DNA of 18,565 nt from Candidatus Raymondbacteria bacterium RIFOXYA2_FULL_49_16 (GTDB taxonomy: Bacteria > Fibrobacterota > OXYB2-FULL-49-7 > XYB2-FULL-49-35). Of this stretch, positions 3,316 through 18,565 are shown one piece after another. The stretch is from NCBI GenBank assembly GCA_001789205.1, contig MFYT01000003.1, positions 570 to 19,134 on the forward strand, in the 5' to 3' direction. Each line of letters opens with the position of its first letter. The stretch's first letter is position 1. The notes below the pieces were generated by a model that did no database searches, was not told where the DNA came from, and was given only the letters and a program-made list of their open reading frames with translations. The translations under genes were made by a program, and so were the position numbers.

Positions 3316-4389
3316 ATGAAATACATCGATATCTATAAATCACTAAAAAGCGATATCATTTCAGGCCGTTACAAGCCTGACTCAAAGATGCCTTCTGCTC
3401 TGGAACTCAGGTCAATCTTTAAGGTGAGTCTTCGAACGATTCAGCACTCACTTAATTTGCTTAAAACAGAGGGCTTGGTAAAGGGTGTGCGTTCTCAGGG
3501 AATCTTTGTACGGAATACTCATGACCTACCTGCTAATACCAGACGGAAAAGCAGCGGCCAAATTGAAAAAGTAGGCGTACTATACCCCCGCTATTCAATG
3601 CACACGATCTGGTCACCCTATTTTTACCATATGTTCTGGGGAATCCAAAATTTGCTCGTTCGCGAGAAAATCAGATGCTATCTGATTGAGACAAAGGATA
3701 AAACCATACAGGAATTATTCAGGGAGATAAACGCGCTTCAGATCGGCGGCCTCATCTGTCTTGAACTGGAGAATGAGATACTGCAGAAAGAACTGGAACA
3801 GCTGAGAATTCCACTCGTTCATGTAGAACTGACCAGTTTTAAAAGCAGTACTCCCTTGGTAGCAGCCAACCATTTTCAGGGTGGAGAACTCGCGGTCAGG
3901 CACCTGCACAAGCTCGGGCACGGGAAAATCCTGTTCCTGTATGCGCGGAAGAAGAACGATCCTATTATGGGCCCAACTACCAAAATGCGCTGGCAAGGCG
4001 TCCAATCAGAAGCAAAAAAAAATAAAATATCAGCGGTGAAAGAGTTTGTGCTCCACCAGGCGCCAGGCGAAGGATTACGCAGGTCGCTCAATACCGTCTT
4101 GAATACGCATGCTGAATGTACAGGAATCATCATAACGACTGACTATATGCTCAGAGAACTCAAATCCATGCTCGAGAGTGAGGTAACAGGAAGCGGCCCA
4201 CAGCTGGACTTTGTCTCTTTTGATGAGGAAATTCAAGTGCCGGAAATCCGCGGCAGGCCTGTACAATTCTGTCTCTGGGACAAGGGATTGATGGGCGCTA
4301 AAGCGGTTGAGACCCTTCTGGCATGGAATAGCAAACCCCCGCGGAAACAGTATTTGCCGATGTTTCTAAAGGGGTCTGTAAAAAGTTAA
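3316..4389 (+). CDS. GntR-HTH / LacI-type ligand-binding transcriptional regulator
   Basis: A 357-residue protein. Residues 1-70 form a GntR winged helix (YKSLKSDIISGRYKPDSKMP, then LRTIQHSLNLLKTEGLVKGV). Residues ~82-357 form a LacI/periplasmic-binding-protein-like sensor (VGVLYPRYSM, GGLICLELENE, AANHFQGGELAVRHLHKLGH, THAECTGIIITTD). This AraR-like architecture usually means a cytoplasmic repressor released by a sugar or oligosaccharide. The gene is divergent from the glycosidase and followed by a polysaccharide lyase, so sensing a glycan breakdown product is the natural inference. No clear Shine-Dalgarno site precedes the ATG, and TATACT (3305-3310) lies only 5 nt before it, suggesting a leaderless transcript. 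The 349-residue regulator at 13070 is a diverged paralog with matching landmarks. Confidence 0.85.
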   Translation: MKYIDIYKSLKSDIISGRYKPDSKMPSALELRSIFKVSLRTIQHSLNLLKTEGLVKGVRSQGIFVRNTHDLPANTRRKSSGQIEKVGVLYPRYSMHTIWSPYFYHMFWGIQNLLVREKIRCYLIETKDKTIQELFREINALQIGGLICLELENEILQKELEQLRIPLVHVELTSFKSSTPLVAANHFQGGELAVRHLHKLGHGKILFLYARKKNDPIMGPTTKMRWQGVQSEAKKNKISAVKEFVLHQAPGEGLRRSLNTVLNTHAECTGIIITTDYMLRELKSMLESEVTGSGPQLDFVSFDEEIQVPEIRGRPVQFCLWDKGLMGAKAVETLLAWNSKPPRKQYLPMFLKGSVKS

Positions 4390-13069: not shown

Positions 13070-14119
13070 ATGAAATATTTATTACTATATCAAAAGCTCA
13101 AACAAGCCATTGGCACTGGTTTTTATCCAACTGGAAAACGGATTCCCCATACGCACGAACTGGTAAAAAAATACAGTGTCAGCCTTACGACAGTCACCCG
13201 GGCTGTCACCCTTCTACAGGACGAAGGACTAATCAGAAGGGTCAAGTCAAAAGGCTCCTTTGTCCTTAAACAGAAAAGTGACGATTATATTGCCTCTCAC
13301 CGCAGGGAACGGATCGGGCTTCTGATTGACGGAAAAATATCCAAATTCATGGACATGCATTTTTTCAGACAGATATTTGAAGGAATGGAGCGCATTGCCC
13401 AAAAACAGGGAAAAAGCATTGTCATTATTCCGCGGGAGGACAAACCTGTCGAGGAATACCTTGCGGAGATACATTCGAACAGCGTCGCAGGCGTCATCCC
13501 CTATTCGTTCTACAACCAGCTTCTCTACAATGGACTGAAGAAATCAGGACTGGCGCTTGTATATTGCGATTTCCTCGACCATATCCTGCCTGTGGACCAG
13601 GTGACCGTGGATCACGCACGCGCAGGCGCACTCGCTTTTAACCGGCTCTTTGAGCTGGGCCATAAAAAGATGCTCTTTTTCGGGACCTATATAGGTGAGG
13701 GTAAACGTGAGGACACCGACCATTTCTACTGGTGGCAAGGCATTGAGTCCCAGGCCCGGTTCCAGAAGCTGAAGCACGTGTTCCGTTCGTTTTTTTTCAT
13801 GGACAACACGCTTAAGGAAAGGATACGCACAGCCGTCGATACGCATGCAGATTGCACCGGCTATATCTGCGCATCAAGCACATATCTTGAACATGTGAAG
13901 GATATAATTGAGAATGACCGGAAATATCACGGGAAAACACGGGACGCTGTTCTTTTCGGCGACGTGAAAGAGGGGCTTTTTCTGCGGGACCGCTGTGTGA
14001 GCCTGTGCCGTTGGGACACGCGGAACATGGGCGGTCGCGCCATGGAAGCCATGCTTGAAATACTGGAGAAAAAGCCGCGCAGGCCCGGCATTCAGTACGT
14101 TCCTGTGGAGATTGTGTAG
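13070..14119 (+). CDS. GntR-HTH / LacI-type ligand-binding transcriptional regulator (second paralog)
   Basis: A 349-residue protein. Residues 1-68 form the GntR winged helix (YQKLKQAIGTGFYPTGKRIP, then LTTVTRAVTLLQDEGLIRRV). Residues ~80-349 form the LacI/periplasmic-binding-like sensor (RIGLLIDGKI, VAGVIPYSFYNQ, DHARAGALAFNRLFELGHKK, WWQGIESQA, THADCTGYICASS). It is a diverged paralog of the regulator at 3316, sharing WQG, THA(E/D)CTG, the C-RWD/C-LWD motif and the KPPRK/KPRRP tail. Expected role: cytoplasmic, ligand-released control of the divergent phosphoesterase. The start is the first ATG; there is no Shine-Dalgarno site, and an extended -10 (TGCTATATA, 13051-13059) lies 10 nt before it, so the mRNA is probably nearly leaderless. 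The ligand is unknown. Confidence 0.85.
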   Translation: MKYLLLYQKLKQAIGTGFYPTGKRIPHTHELVKKYSVSLTTVTRAVTLLQDEGLIRRVKSKGSFVLKQKSDDYIASHRRERIGLLIDGKISKFMDMHFFRQIFEGMERIAQKQGKSIVIIPREDKPVEEYLAEIHSNSVAGVIPYSFYNQLLYNGLKKSGLALVYCDFLDHILPVDQVTVDHARAGALAFNRLFELGHKKMLFFGTYIGEGKREDTDHFYWWQGIESQARFQKLKHVFRSFFFMDNTLKERIRTAVDTHADCTGYICASSTYLEHVKDIIENDRKYHGKTRDAVLFGDVKEGLFLRDRCVSLCRWDTRNMGGRAMEAMLEILEKKPRRPGIQYVPVEIV

Positions 14120-14267: not shown

Positions 14268-16415
14268 CTATTTTAAGCATATCATGCGTTGAACAAGAAT
14301 TCTTCCGTTAATCTTCGCTTTAATCATATATATGCCTACCGGCTGCGCATATGCGTTCCAACACACAGTTGACGGTGTAGAAGAAGGATTAAGAAAAGAA
14401 TAAACAAGTTTACCGGTAACAGTATATATGCATATTTTCTCAGAAACGCATTCTTCCTTATTTTTACTTAATTGTATATGCACACTAGAACTAAACGGGT
14501 TCGGCGACACGATAAGGTGGACATTATCCTCCTTCAACGGCCGGGCCGCCGCACGAGAGACCGGATCCAGGGGAATCATGACAAATCGCGATCCGCCAGT
14601 GTCCTGATCACCCGATTTTACCTGGAAACCCGGAAACGTGACAAGCCCGTATTCGTCAGCGGTAATAGTATCGATCTGATAGACCATAGCCGTGTCGTTA
14701 ACCGCCGTATTTCTTACGATGTATTCTTCCCCGGGAATTATCCTGAAATTCTGGAGCCGTCTGGGCGTTATATCAGCGGTATCATCGCCAATAGGATCCA
14801 TATAGTTGGACTTCCACGATGCCAGCACAATCTCGTACCTGTTGAGTTCGTCAATCTGCTCCTGCACGCCGCCTGCCTTATAATGGGGCGTGCTCCATAT
14901 AAAATGATTGTTCAACGGGAAATCAATCTCTTCCGGGACATCAGGAAAGGGAAGGTCCGCGTTGCTCGCCACATTGGAAAACGCGGGCAAGGAGTTGTTT
15001 TTCCTTATTGTGGTCAATTGCGGAAGCGCCGAGGCTATTACATCACACTCGCCGTGGCCGTACGCGCCCCGTACTCCCCCGTTGAATCCTCTCCTGCTTA
15101 TCTCCAGGTTGGTGAAATAATTCCGTCCCTGTGAAGGCCAGTCAACGGTCAAATCCTTTGCCCCAAAACCATAGGCGATCCATGGCATATCATCGCCGGG
15201 ACTCAACAGAAGTTTTTCTTCCTGATTAAACCAATTGTTGACAGTCATGCCTTTGAATTTTTCGTTCAGCAATTCGCTGCGCCATCCGGTAAAAGAGACT
15301 GTCATGGCTGTATCGTCATAGGCGCCCCATAACTTGCTGAAATAGCCGCGCTTATCATATACCCCCTCGTCATAATAGTCTGTGGCGCCGGAATAGGAAA
15401 ACGCATAAGCGAAGAAATCGGGATAATTGTACGCAAACTGCAAGGTACCGCCTGAACCATTGGAATTCCCCTTGAGGAAAACGCGATTAGTGTCGATTCG
15501 CGCTGAAAAATAAGCGTCCTTGAAAATAAGATACTTCAGGAAATTCATCACCCGTGCCTGTGTAAAATTCATTGTGGGACCCGTGTCAACGACATCACCC
15601 AAGCGGTAATTATACGTCTGGCTGAACCCAAACCAGTATGTGTTGTCGCCTTCGGGAATCACTTTAATATCGATATGCTTGTTTGCCATATTATCCGGTA
15701 TGGAATCTGTTATACCCCCAAGGTCCTGTGTGCCGCCATTCAGGCACAATTCAAGATTACAGCCTCCTAAAGTTGAATTATAACGTCTGTTTACTCCTAC
15801 CCAGTATGGAAAAGCGTATTCCTGGTACCGATAGGACAAATTAAATGTATCAACATCAATATACTGCAGATAGATGCGTGCGGTCTTATAGTTCGACTGC
15901 CAGATTAAAAGAGGAGCGGGATCCGCAACGGTTTCCGCAACAGGCCCTATGCTGTTGCCGCCATCCACGCTTTTATCCTCAATGCCGCCTATGACCGCGG
16001 TTACGGCATAGTAATAGGTTCCATTTATATGAGTGGTCAACACAATCATGTTTTTACCTTCCGGCAACTGCTCCGTATTGCCTGTCGCTGCCGGGTCTAG
16101 CGGTTCTGTTACGTTTCTAGAAAAGACACAGGGAGGCGTTAAATTCGAGAATGTGGAAATCTGCGAAAGATGGTCCAGTATGTCATTATGAGCGAATCCC
16201 TGCGCAACTTCAAACCTTTTATTCTCCAATGTCAGATCAGCGACTGTTATCGGGGACGTACTGCGATACATGATATACTTTTCACCGCTCGCCACTTCAT
16301 CCCAGGTAAGGAATACCTGCCCTGAGCGGAAAGATACAGCCAAATTCGAGGGTACGGCAGCGAAAACAGGCATTAGTATTGAAAGAAACAGGGGAATTAA
16401 ATAAAATAGCTTCAT
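14268..16415 (-). CDS. Secreted alpha/beta-hydrolase-fold esterase with Fn3 and C-terminal sorting domain
   Basis: A 715-residue protein. The ATG at 16415 is preferred over an ATG 30 bp upstream because AAGGA lies 7 nt before it and it begins a clean signal peptide (MKLFYLIPLFLSILMPVFA). Residues ~21-165 look like Fn3 (PSNLAVSFRSGQVFLTWDEV ... GTYYYAVTAV). The middle (~170-600) resembles a carbohydrate-esterase/polymer-depolymerase hydrolase: nucleophile elbow GNSNG (316-320, S318), then YPDFFAYAFSYSG, a candidate acid in GAKDLTVDW (D421 or D425) and a candidate His in YGHGE (H454). The last ~80 residues form the Ig-like tag (VSPNPFSSSVHIQL ... VGIYMIKAK) ending in Lys. It probably de-esterifies a plant or algal polymer outside the cell; the triad assignment and substrate are inferred. 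It is divergent from the PAS/AraC regulator. Confidence 0.65.
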   Translation of the reverse strand: MKLFYLIPLFLSILMPVFAAVPSNLAVSFRSGQVFLTWDEVASGEKYIMYRSTSPITVADLTLENKRFEVAQGFAHNDILDHLSQISTFSNLTPPCVFSRNVTEPLDPAATGNTEQLPEGKNMIVLTTHINGTYYYAVTAVIGGIEDKSVDGGNSIGPVAETVADPAPLLIWQSNYKTARIYLQYIDVDTFNLSYRYQEYAFPYWVGVNRRYNSTLGGCNLELCLNGGTQDLGGITDSIPDNMANKHIDIKVIPEGDNTYWFGFSQTYNYRLGDVVDTGPTMNFTQARVMNFLKYLIFKDAYFSARIDTNRVFLKGNSNGSGGTLQFAYNYPDFFAYAFSYSGATDYYDEGVYDKRGYFSKLWGAYDDTAMTVSFTGWRSELLNEKFKGMTVNNWFNQEEKLLLSPGDDMPWIAYGFGAKDLTVDWPSQGRNYFTNLEISRRGFNGGVRGAYGHGECDVIASALPQLTTIRKNNSLPAFSNVASNADLPFPDVPEEIDFPLNNHFIWSTPHYKAGGVQEQIDELNRYEIVLASWKSNYMDPIGDDTADITPRRLQNFRIIPGEEYIVRNTAVNDTAMVYQIDTITADEYGLVTFPGFQVKSGDQDTGGSRFVMIPLDPVSRAAARPLKEDNVHLIVSPNPFSSSVHIQLSKNKEECVSEKICIYTVTGKLVYSFLNPSSTPSTVCWNAYAQPVGIYMIKAKINGRILVQRMICLK

Positions 16416-16462
16416 GGCACCGTCCTTATTTATTATTTTACACAATATTTTGCTATATTATT

Positions 16463-16497
16463 ATAATAACAAATTATCATACCAAATACAATGTCAA
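16463..16497 (-). promoter_or_regulatory. Promoter of the esterase gene with a 13-bp repeated motif in the spacer
   Basis: On the minus strand, TTGTAT (16486-16491) is separated by exactly 17 bp from TATTAT (16463-16468); TTGACA (16492-16497) lies just upstream. The spacer ends with ATTATCATACCAA (plus strand 16473-16485), which recurs exactly at 18333-18345 beyond the regulator gene. It could be an operator for the divergent regulator. Confidence 0.4.
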
Positions 16498-16557
16498 TTA
16501 TTATATTAATTATTGTTAAAAATTATACTATGTCGACGCTTTAGAGTTCCTTGCTTA

Positions 16558-18270
16558 ATGAATGAAATAACTTTTAAAGACCTCTTTTCGAATCCAAATC
16601 TTGTTTTTCTCATAATAGACGAAAACGGGATAATACGCGATGTTTCACCCAATGCAAAAAAAATGATCGGATTTGATAAAACGTATTTCCACGGTAAGCG
16701 CTTGGAGCAGATTTTTTCCCAAAGATCATCATTCGAAAAGCAGATACTCACTATTGCATGTATTAAAGAACATGCGATATGCCCCGGTTACGTATATGTG
16801 GGTCTTCGAGGAAAAGGTACGCACAATGCCATAGAGGATGTTTTTGTCGACAAGATATTCCATTTTTCATATTTCAGTTGGGTAAATAAAAATAGCGCGA
16901 AATTCCTGCCCATATCTCTGGCGCCGCAACACGTAACACTGGAATCACCGATTGTTCAATGGCTGACAAGTCTTTATAGGCAGGTCCAGCAGCCGCTGGT
17001 GCTTCTGGATAACGATTTCAGGATATTTTTTTATAATTCCAGCTTTCTTTCTCTGCTGAATTACTACGATGATTCGAAAATCCTGGGTTTTCCCATCCTG
17101 GAATTTCTTGATGAAAGGCACAGAAATCCCAGCCCATTCGATTTTCTCAAAAAAATAAGGGACCCCGTTGGCGCTATTTCAAAGGACGTCAAACACCAAT
17201 GGAAGCCGATGGTCACGGTTCCCTTAAAAAACGGTTCAGCTAAAAAAGCGGTCAATCGTCTGTTTGTTAAAAACAAGCGATTGAAATTAAAATGCAGCAA
17301 TGGCGCCCTGAAAATCCGCGAAAACCAAGCCGATCCCGCAGAACCCAGCCGGCTTATTTTTTCAAAAGCCGTGAATTTTCCCAACCGGGACCTTAAAGTG
17401 GAAATATCCTTTATAGCGGAGAAGGGGATCGATGTGACAATAGCCCTTGGGCGTCCTGTTTCCGGAGGATTATACAGGTTTTTTGATCATGGATATCATA
17501 TTGACATAAAATTTCACAATCATTTGTTCTGTCAATTTTCAAGAAGGTCCTCGCCTCTTTTGAGAAGCGAGATCGAGCATATTACACCGGGAACAACGTG
17601 CGCAATAACGATAAAACGCATAGGCCCGGTAATTTCCATTGAAATGAATGGCAGGATTATTATGCATTACAAGGATCCCAGGCCGATCATCGGCGTATTC
17701 GCGTCCCATTTGTACCTCTATTGCTGGGGGCATGCGCTGGAGTTAAGGAAGTTTGCAATAAGTATAAAAACTTCCAAATATAATCGTGAAACAGAGGAAC
17801 ATGATAGATCAAAATTCATATCCTTTGCCACGGTTCCGGGAAAGCTCTTCAATTTTTATACTGAACAGATTTACTGCATAAACAGGGTGGCATTTGTTGT
17901 AGGCTTTAATGAATTACCGATACTATCGCGTAATCCTGGAAAAGACACGCTGCTGTCGCGTTTGGAAGAGGTCCGCAACCACATTGAAAGCAATTATTTC
18001 AGAAAAACTGATTTTAAGAAACTAGCCGGTATGTGTTGCATAAGTTATGTCCATTTCATAAATAAATTCAAGGAAGTGTATGGTTCGGCGCCCAAGTCTT
18101 TTCAAATAGAATGTAAATTGCGAGAAGCTGAAAAACTTTTAAAAAGTGGGAAATACCAGATAAAAGAAGTGGGGGAAATGATCGGGTTCGAGGATGTGGT
18201 CAATTTCCATCATTTTATTAAAAAACATCGGCATACGACCCCAGGCTACATGCGAGAAAAGCCTGTCTGA
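16558..18270 (+). CDS. AraC-family regulator with two PAS-like domains and a concanavalin-like beta domain
   Basis: A 570-residue cytoplasmic protein without signal peptide or membrane segment. The ATG at 16558 is preferred over the TTG at 16513 because the PAS domain begins directly after it; no Shine-Dalgarno site is present. Order: PAS-like 1 (~5-115, LVFLIIDENGIIRDVSPNAK); PAS-like 2 (~143-240, PLVLLDNDFRIFFYNSSFL); a beta-rich region (~242-404) resembling ConA-like/DUF1080-type sandwiches (DLKVEISFIAEKGIDVTIAL, HGYHIDIKFHNHLFCQFSRR, ITIKRIGPVISIEMNGRIIM); and the AraC double HTH (~465-568, HIESNYFRKTDFKKLAGMCC ... GEMIGFEDVVNFHHFIKKH, TPGYM). It probably controls the divergent esterase. 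The beta domain might bind a carbohydrate or other ligand; this is inferred from fold-like pattern only. The AraC call is strong, the PAS calls good and the beta domain moderate. Confidence 0.75.
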   Translation: MNEITFKDLFSNPNLVFLIIDENGIIRDVSPNAKKMIGFDKTYFHGKRLEQIFSQRSSFEKQILTIACIKEHAICPGYVYVGLRGKGTHNAIEDVFVDKIFHFSYFSWVNKNSAKFLPISLAPQHVTLESPIVQWLTSLYRQVQQPLVLLDNDFRIFFYNSSFLSLLNYYDDSKILGFPILEFLDERHRNPSPFDFLKKIRDPVGAISKDVKHQWKPMVTVPLKNGSAKKAVNRLFVKNKRLKLKCSNGALKIRENQADPAEPSRLIFSKAVNFPNRDLKVEISFIAEKGIDVTIALGRPVSGGLYRFFDHGYHIDIKFHNHLFCQFSRRSSPLLRSEIEHITPGTTCAITIKRIGPVISIEMNGRIIMHYKDPRPIIGVFASHLYLYCWGHALELRKFAISIKTSKYNRETEEHDRSKFISFATVPGKLFNFYTEQIYCINRVAFVVGFNELPILSRNPGKDTLLSRLEEVRNHIESNYFRKTDFKKLAGMCCISYVHFINKFKEVYGSAPKSFQIECKLREAEKLLKSGKYQIKEVGEMIGFEDVVNFHHFIKKHRHTTPGYMREKPV

Positions 18271-18381: not shown

Positions 18382-18498
18382 TCAATTCCTGTATTCCCTC
18401 GGCGACATGCCCATTTTTTTCTTGAAAAGCCTGTTGAAACTCGAGAGCGTTGAAAATCCGCACTCAAACGCCGCGCTAGTGCCACGACCACTTAATTT
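18382..18498 (-). pseudogene. Truncated C-terminal tail of an AraC-family regulator
   Basis: On the minus strand the frame ending at the TGA at 18382-18384 encodes AAFECGFSTLSSFNRLFKKK followed by MGMSPREYRN, the unmistakable last helix-turn-helix and PREYR ending of AraC/XylS proteins. The coding similarity stops abruptly near 18478 and an in-frame TAA (18499-18501) closes the frame upstream. Beyond the break the DNA is AT-rich with no AraC-like sequence up to the window edge. The gene has therefore lost its N-terminal part, by deletion or by insertion of an element whose body would lie to the right. It differs from the tail of the intact AraC regulator next door. Confidence 0.7.
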
Positions 18499-18565
18499 TT
18501 ACACTTTTTGTATTTAAATTTTTCTCGCGCTTTTTTTCGTGTAAAGCGCCAGTTGATCAATATTT

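Follow-up and report, generated by a model that had tools for sequence, protein, structure and literature searches.

A predicted cytoplasmic AraC-type regulator with a lectin-like sandwich probably inserted in its second PAS domain, encoded beside a secreted hydrolase gene

The window, which is the whole 18,565-nucleotide stretch of Candidatus Raymondbacteria DNA analysed here, carries a regulator gene at 16558-18270 on the forward strand. The open reading frame starts with ATG at 16558 and encodes 570 residues; an alternative in-frame TTG at 16513 would make the protein 15 residues longer. From the reading frame, Pfam and AlphaFold2 modelling, the protein is composed of PAS1, PAS2 with an apparently inserted concanavalin-like (ConA-like) domain, and an AraC-type HTH domain. 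PAS1 (residues ∼15–124; 16600-16929) is matched by Pfam PAS_9 at residues 17–63 and formed by model strands at residues 16–123. The first part of PAS2 (residues ∼131–211; 16948-17190) is matched by PAS_8 at residues 136–188, and both models agree on the PAS fold of this N-terminal sensor region. Next come the ConA-like (lectin/glucanase) β-sandwich (residues ∼213–407; 17194-17778) and the putative last strands of PAS2 (residues ∼416–454; 17803-17919), modelled at residues 431–440 and 443–452. The C-terminal AraC-type double HTH (residues ∼467–568; 17956-18261) is matched by HTH_18 (PF12833) at residues 489–567 with an E-value of 5e-12; this match and the two PAS matches are the Pfam hits above cut-off. 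The regulator has no signal peptide and no transmembrane segment, and its highest 19-residue hydropathy window is 1.33. The protein is thus predicted to be cytoplasmic, as the preliminary description of this DNA had proposed from the lack of an export signal.

The divergent gene (14268-16415, − strand) encodes a secreted α/β-hydrolase of esterase-like type, as judged by Pfam and sequence; it carries a T9SS-type C-terminal tail and has weak similarity to PETases and PHB esterases. The secreted esterase that the preliminary description had placed opposite the regulator is therefore present, and it is the likely target of the regulator. The intergenic region between the two genes (16416-16557) is, by its position, likely the control region for both; sigma-70-like matches were the only elements found there, and an operator was sought without success.

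The window contains additional regulatory genes. Proteins combining a GntR-type HTH with a LacI-type sugar-binding domain are encoded at 3316-4389 and 13070-14119, and also at L029:15485-16597 and L113:12564-13658, where they were recognized by similar sequence only; these fusions occur in several copies, also near genes for secreted T9SS-tailed proteins. At the end of the window (18382-18485, − strand, and 18476-18565) lies what remains of another AraC-family gene, its C-terminal part (…FNRLFKKKMGMSPREYRN*), cut off by a repeated sequence. The truncating sequence, which recurs at 12 genomic sites and chiefly at the ends of contigs, probably represents the terminus of an insertion element. Eight other AraC proteins of the genome have an extracytoplasmic sensor region, followed by a single strong transmembrane segment directly ahead of the HTH (L012:340-1803, L022:1764-3782, L015, L016, L017, L019, L026:2601-4268 and L026:7188-8747); all adjoin secreted-protein genes, and in two of them the sensor is a CBM9 domain. 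Since these membrane-anchored proteins coexist with the cytoplasmic regulator, carbohydrate may be sensed in this organism both inside and outside the membrane.

Two AlphaFold2 models were built for the regulator, one with ten paralogs as input (pLDDT 77, pTM 0.69) and the other for residues 129–456 with 21 sequences (pLDDT 81, pTM 0.77). Both contain a many-stranded jelly-roll β-sandwich of the ConA-like lectin/glucanase superfamily. Compared to ConA-like lectins and glucanases, the sandwich gives Z-scores of 15–18 over ∼150–185 residues, and Foldseek returns an E-value of 6e-8 for the region. The top structural match is Bacillus subtilis YesU (1oq1; Z 18.0–18.4, 184–185 residues, rmsd 2.8–2.9); L-type lectins, legume lectins, GH16 laminarinases and a DUF1080 structure rank next, the L-type lectins, GH16 and DUF1080 with Z-scores of 15–17. 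The ConA-like fold foreseen in the preliminary description thus stands, and its extent has grown; because the structural matches span residues ∼207–407, the sandwich is ∼195 residues in size and exceeds the 242–404 originally assigned. The suggested relationship to DUF1080 fared less well. A match to PF06439 (3keto-disac_hyd, DUF1080) does cover residues 239–400, but its E-value is 0.07, its score of 13.6–15.1 bits lies below the gathering cut-off of 26.8, and it appears in only 1 of the 21 family members described below. A PDB sequence search with the module profile gave no useful relative. Trp215, Asp278, Tyr313, Arg329 and Asp373 are common to all output groups of the family; they may have a structural rather than a ligand-binding role. 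Binding to fucosylated glycans has been measured for YesU (PMC6120924). By analogy, the sandwich could bind oligosaccharides, although a shared fold is no proof of a shared function.

The domain set of the preliminary description (PAS, PAS, ConA-like domain, AraC HTH) is retained, but its linear chain is not: sequence profiles and models together indicate that the sandwich most likely lies inside PAS2, between its helices and its last β-strands. Three observations indicate that PAS2 is not continuous. Ahead of the sandwich, sequence profiles recognize only the first half of a PAS domain; in a profile of 129 positions derived from 30 ordinary PAS domains encoded by this genome, the match covers positions 7–60. 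In both AlphaFold2 models, the missing PAS2 strands are located after the sandwich. The homologous post-sandwich segment of 11 non-AraC paralogs, a subset picked after HMMER and hhalign tail tests over all 21 members, aligns on its own to the end of the PAS profile (positions 105–128), scoring 23.6, whereas 100 column permutations reached at most 17.4. Joined to the PAS2 first half, the tails of these 11 proteins align to positions 8–128 of 129 (score 43.4 versus 34.2). PAS domains are usually trailed by a linker helix, and the stretch that aligns alone takes in the start of such a helix. The AraC-type tails align with the non-AraC tails and are too diverged to score alone as PAS by sequence; artificial excision of the sandwich extended the Pfam PAS match of PAS2 modestly only. 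Taken together, the insertion appears well supported, short of proof.

The PAS-PAS[ConA] module is present in at least 21 proteins of this genome, with three kinds of output: 10 end in AraC, 8 are sigma-54 AAA+ activators and 3 are SpoIIE-type PP2C phosphatases. In addition to the regulator, the AraC group comprises nine full-length paralogs of 27–40% identity. With these nine and the 11 further proteins carrying the module, the recurrence of the architecture is far above chance. Seven of the sigma-54-type members were scanned by Pfam and match Sigma54_activat (PF00158) with E-values of 1e-64 to 1e-68; the eighth, at L052, was assigned from its sequence. A sigma-54 gene was found in the genome. 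In a tree of the module the output groups are clustered: a branch with full support separates the AraC group from the rest, and two changes, the minimum, account for the three outputs. A contig scan with the full alignment returned generic AraC HTH matches only. At L047 (G000:C9:145346-145474), a short ConA-region fragment of the family in a 122-codon frame is likely a pseudogene remnant.

The genes facing the DNA-binding members were compared with other divergent pairs; the three SpoIIE members do not bind DNA and are outside these counts. Among the 17 DNA-binding members with an upstream neighbour on the contig, 14 have a first divergent neighbour with a T9SS-type sorting tail; in 400 kb of background sequence, 7 of the 98 genes in divergent pairs encode such a tail (Fisher p 2e-10). 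The 17 are not fully independent counts, since they arose by duplication, in part along with the neighbouring genes. A fifteenth neighbour, at L052, has such a tail by Pfam only. About 10 of the 17 neighbours are esterase-like hydrolases or paralogs of one, so the linkage to a secreted esterase noted for the regulator does recur in the family, and many of the linked genes encode carbohydrate- or ester-active enzymes. At L113:8577-10784 and L114:9541-11898, secreted T9SS-tailed leucine-rich-repeat proteins are encoded divergently from sigma-54-type members. Such tailed and esterase neighbours, placed back to back with the module regulators, point to intracellular sensing of polysaccharide fragments.

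The promoters of these neighbours differ with the regulator. Compared to 318 other upstream regions, −24/−12-like sites are enriched upstream of the sigma-54-type targets (p 4e-4), whereas sigma-54-like sites show no enrichment upstream of the AraC-type targets (p 0.9). The promoter type of the target therefore follows the output type of the regulator, as would be the case if every regulator acted on its own neighbour. Because sigma-54-like sites occur only upstream of the neighbours of sigma-54-type members, the genomic data support the idea that each DNA-binding member locally regulates its divergent neighbour. A search for operator k-mers common to the AraC-type intergenic regions gave nothing significant.

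Outside this genome, ∼730 others were surveyed, comprising 166 of the same phylum, ∼220 from elsewhere and 343 of three other groups. The full module was absent from them, at a depth of few candidates scored per genome, so that rare or diverged cases may be missed. The 343 genomes of the three groups gave partial sandwich matches only, in large proteins of one group; those inspected had no obvious PAS or HTH domain, and one large sandwich-relative protein elsewhere has a signal-peptide-like start. A plasmid search likewise gave partial matches only, the best over residues 399–546. The usual home of the ConA-like, or lectin, fold is in secreted sugar-binding proteins. Within the phylum, relatives of the sandwich sit behind the transmembrane segment of Ser/Thr kinases; four such kinases (L074, L036, L037 and L078), from this and other genomes of the phylum, have the ConA-like domain behind an apparent transmembrane segment. 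This distribution would fit an origin of the cytoplasmic sensor by capture of an extracytoplasmic domain. AraC outputs, PAS sensors and ConA-like folds are each of known kinds, and the new aspect appears to be their arrangement, with a lectin-like domain inside PAS, in the cytoplasm, common to three outputs. We found no description of a PAS-inserted lectin architecture in the open-licence literature searched, and together with the genome survey this sustains the earlier suggestion that the architecture is undescribed.

The regulator is probably best read as a cytoplasmic, predicted glycan-sensing, local activator of the secreted hydrolase gene. In the working model, extracellular hydrolases would release oligosaccharides, which, or whose breakdown products, would enter the cell, and the sandwich would bind the imported oligosaccharide. 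Binding could then change the host PAS2, which connects to the output domain through its final strands; this geometry is supported, and the effect is proposed. The AraC, sigma-54 or phosphatase output would act in turn, and linkage and promoter type suggest that the DNA-binding types act on the adjoining secreted-protein gene, so that transcription of secreted esterase or glycanase genes would be activated. A second input, for instance a metabolite or the redox state, probably comes in through PAS1.

We lean, by a small degree, towards a family of cytoplasmic one-component regulators whose sensor consists of two PAS domains with a lectin-like sandwich in PAS2, and which is predicted to place secreted genes under glycan-driven control. 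The main alternative, which we consider unlikely but worth serious weight, gives the sandwich a structural or dimerization role, in which it spaces or couples subunits and has no sugar ligand, while the PAS domains sense a small metabolite or redox. PAS domains are proven sensors in general, the residues conserved across all groups could be the core of the fold, and a fold match alone shows no function. However, 21 regulators have retained the sandwich, and those that bind DNA are mostly encoded beside secreted hydrolase genes; the closest structural relative of the domain, YesU, does bind glycans (PMC6120924).

It is improbable that the sandwich recognizes a protein instead, for example the cytoplasmic precursor of a T9SS-tailed protein, with the regulator reporting a secretion backlog. 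ConA-like folds can bind proteins, and the consistent linkage to varied T9SS-tailed proteins, including leucine-rich-repeat ones without an obvious enzyme, would agree with such a role; nothing ties the sandwich to T9SS tails, however, and the abundance of carbohydrate- or ester-active enzymes among the linked genes argues against it. Still less probable is a sandwich that is or was an enzyme, such as a relative of 3-keto-glycoside hydrolases, in which case the regulator would sense the turnover of a sugar that the domain processes. The weak PF06439 match and the Z-score of 15.1 to the DUF1080 structure 3hbk are in line with this, but the single sub-threshold match among the 21 members counts against it, and no catalytic motif was identified in the sandwich. 

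Carrying the glycan-sensing reading further, it is a possibility rated slightly short of even that the family represents an undescribed module in which a PAS domain encloses an intracellular lectin, and which has multiplied in one lineage and been joined to at least three outputs, so that many secreted-hydrolase loci would each be switched by a cytoplasmic glycan receptor of their own. If so, the sensor of a transcription factor would be an intracellular lectin, and a PAS domain would house a whole binding domain. Every DNA-binding member would then be matched to a single secreted-enzyme locus, which would allow ligand specificity to be tested one locus at a time, in a bacterium with many genes for secreted T9SS-tailed proteins.

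Among known systems, YesU resembles the sandwich in its ConA-like fold, being the best structural match; like the regulator, it has no predicted classical export signal, and export without one was discussed by its authors (PMC6120924). Different from the regulator, YesU stands alone, without PAS or DNA-binding domains, and identity over the match is ∼10–11%. The DUF1080/3-keto-disaccharide hydrolase family (PF06439) shares the fold and a weak sequence match, whereas the sandwich stays below the Pfam cut-off, is cytoplasmic and apparently lies inside PAS. PAS one-component regulators such as PpsR (4hh2), which appears in the fold search, are also cytoplasmic and have PAS followed by HTH, but they have no β-sandwich in PAS and use another HTH family. 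In Bacteroidetes polysaccharide loci, AraC-type hybrid two-component systems accompany genes for secreted enzymes that degrade polysaccharides (reviewed in PMC10766802), a setting similar to that of the regulator; they are phosphorelay sensors with AraC-type response regulators, whereas the regulator has no kinase or receiver and its sensor is fully cytoplasmic. Within the same genome, the membrane-anchored AraC proteins (L012, L026 and others) likewise place an AraC output beside secreted-protein genes, but they have no PAS domain, their sensor lies outside the membrane, and a transmembrane segment immediately precedes the HTH.
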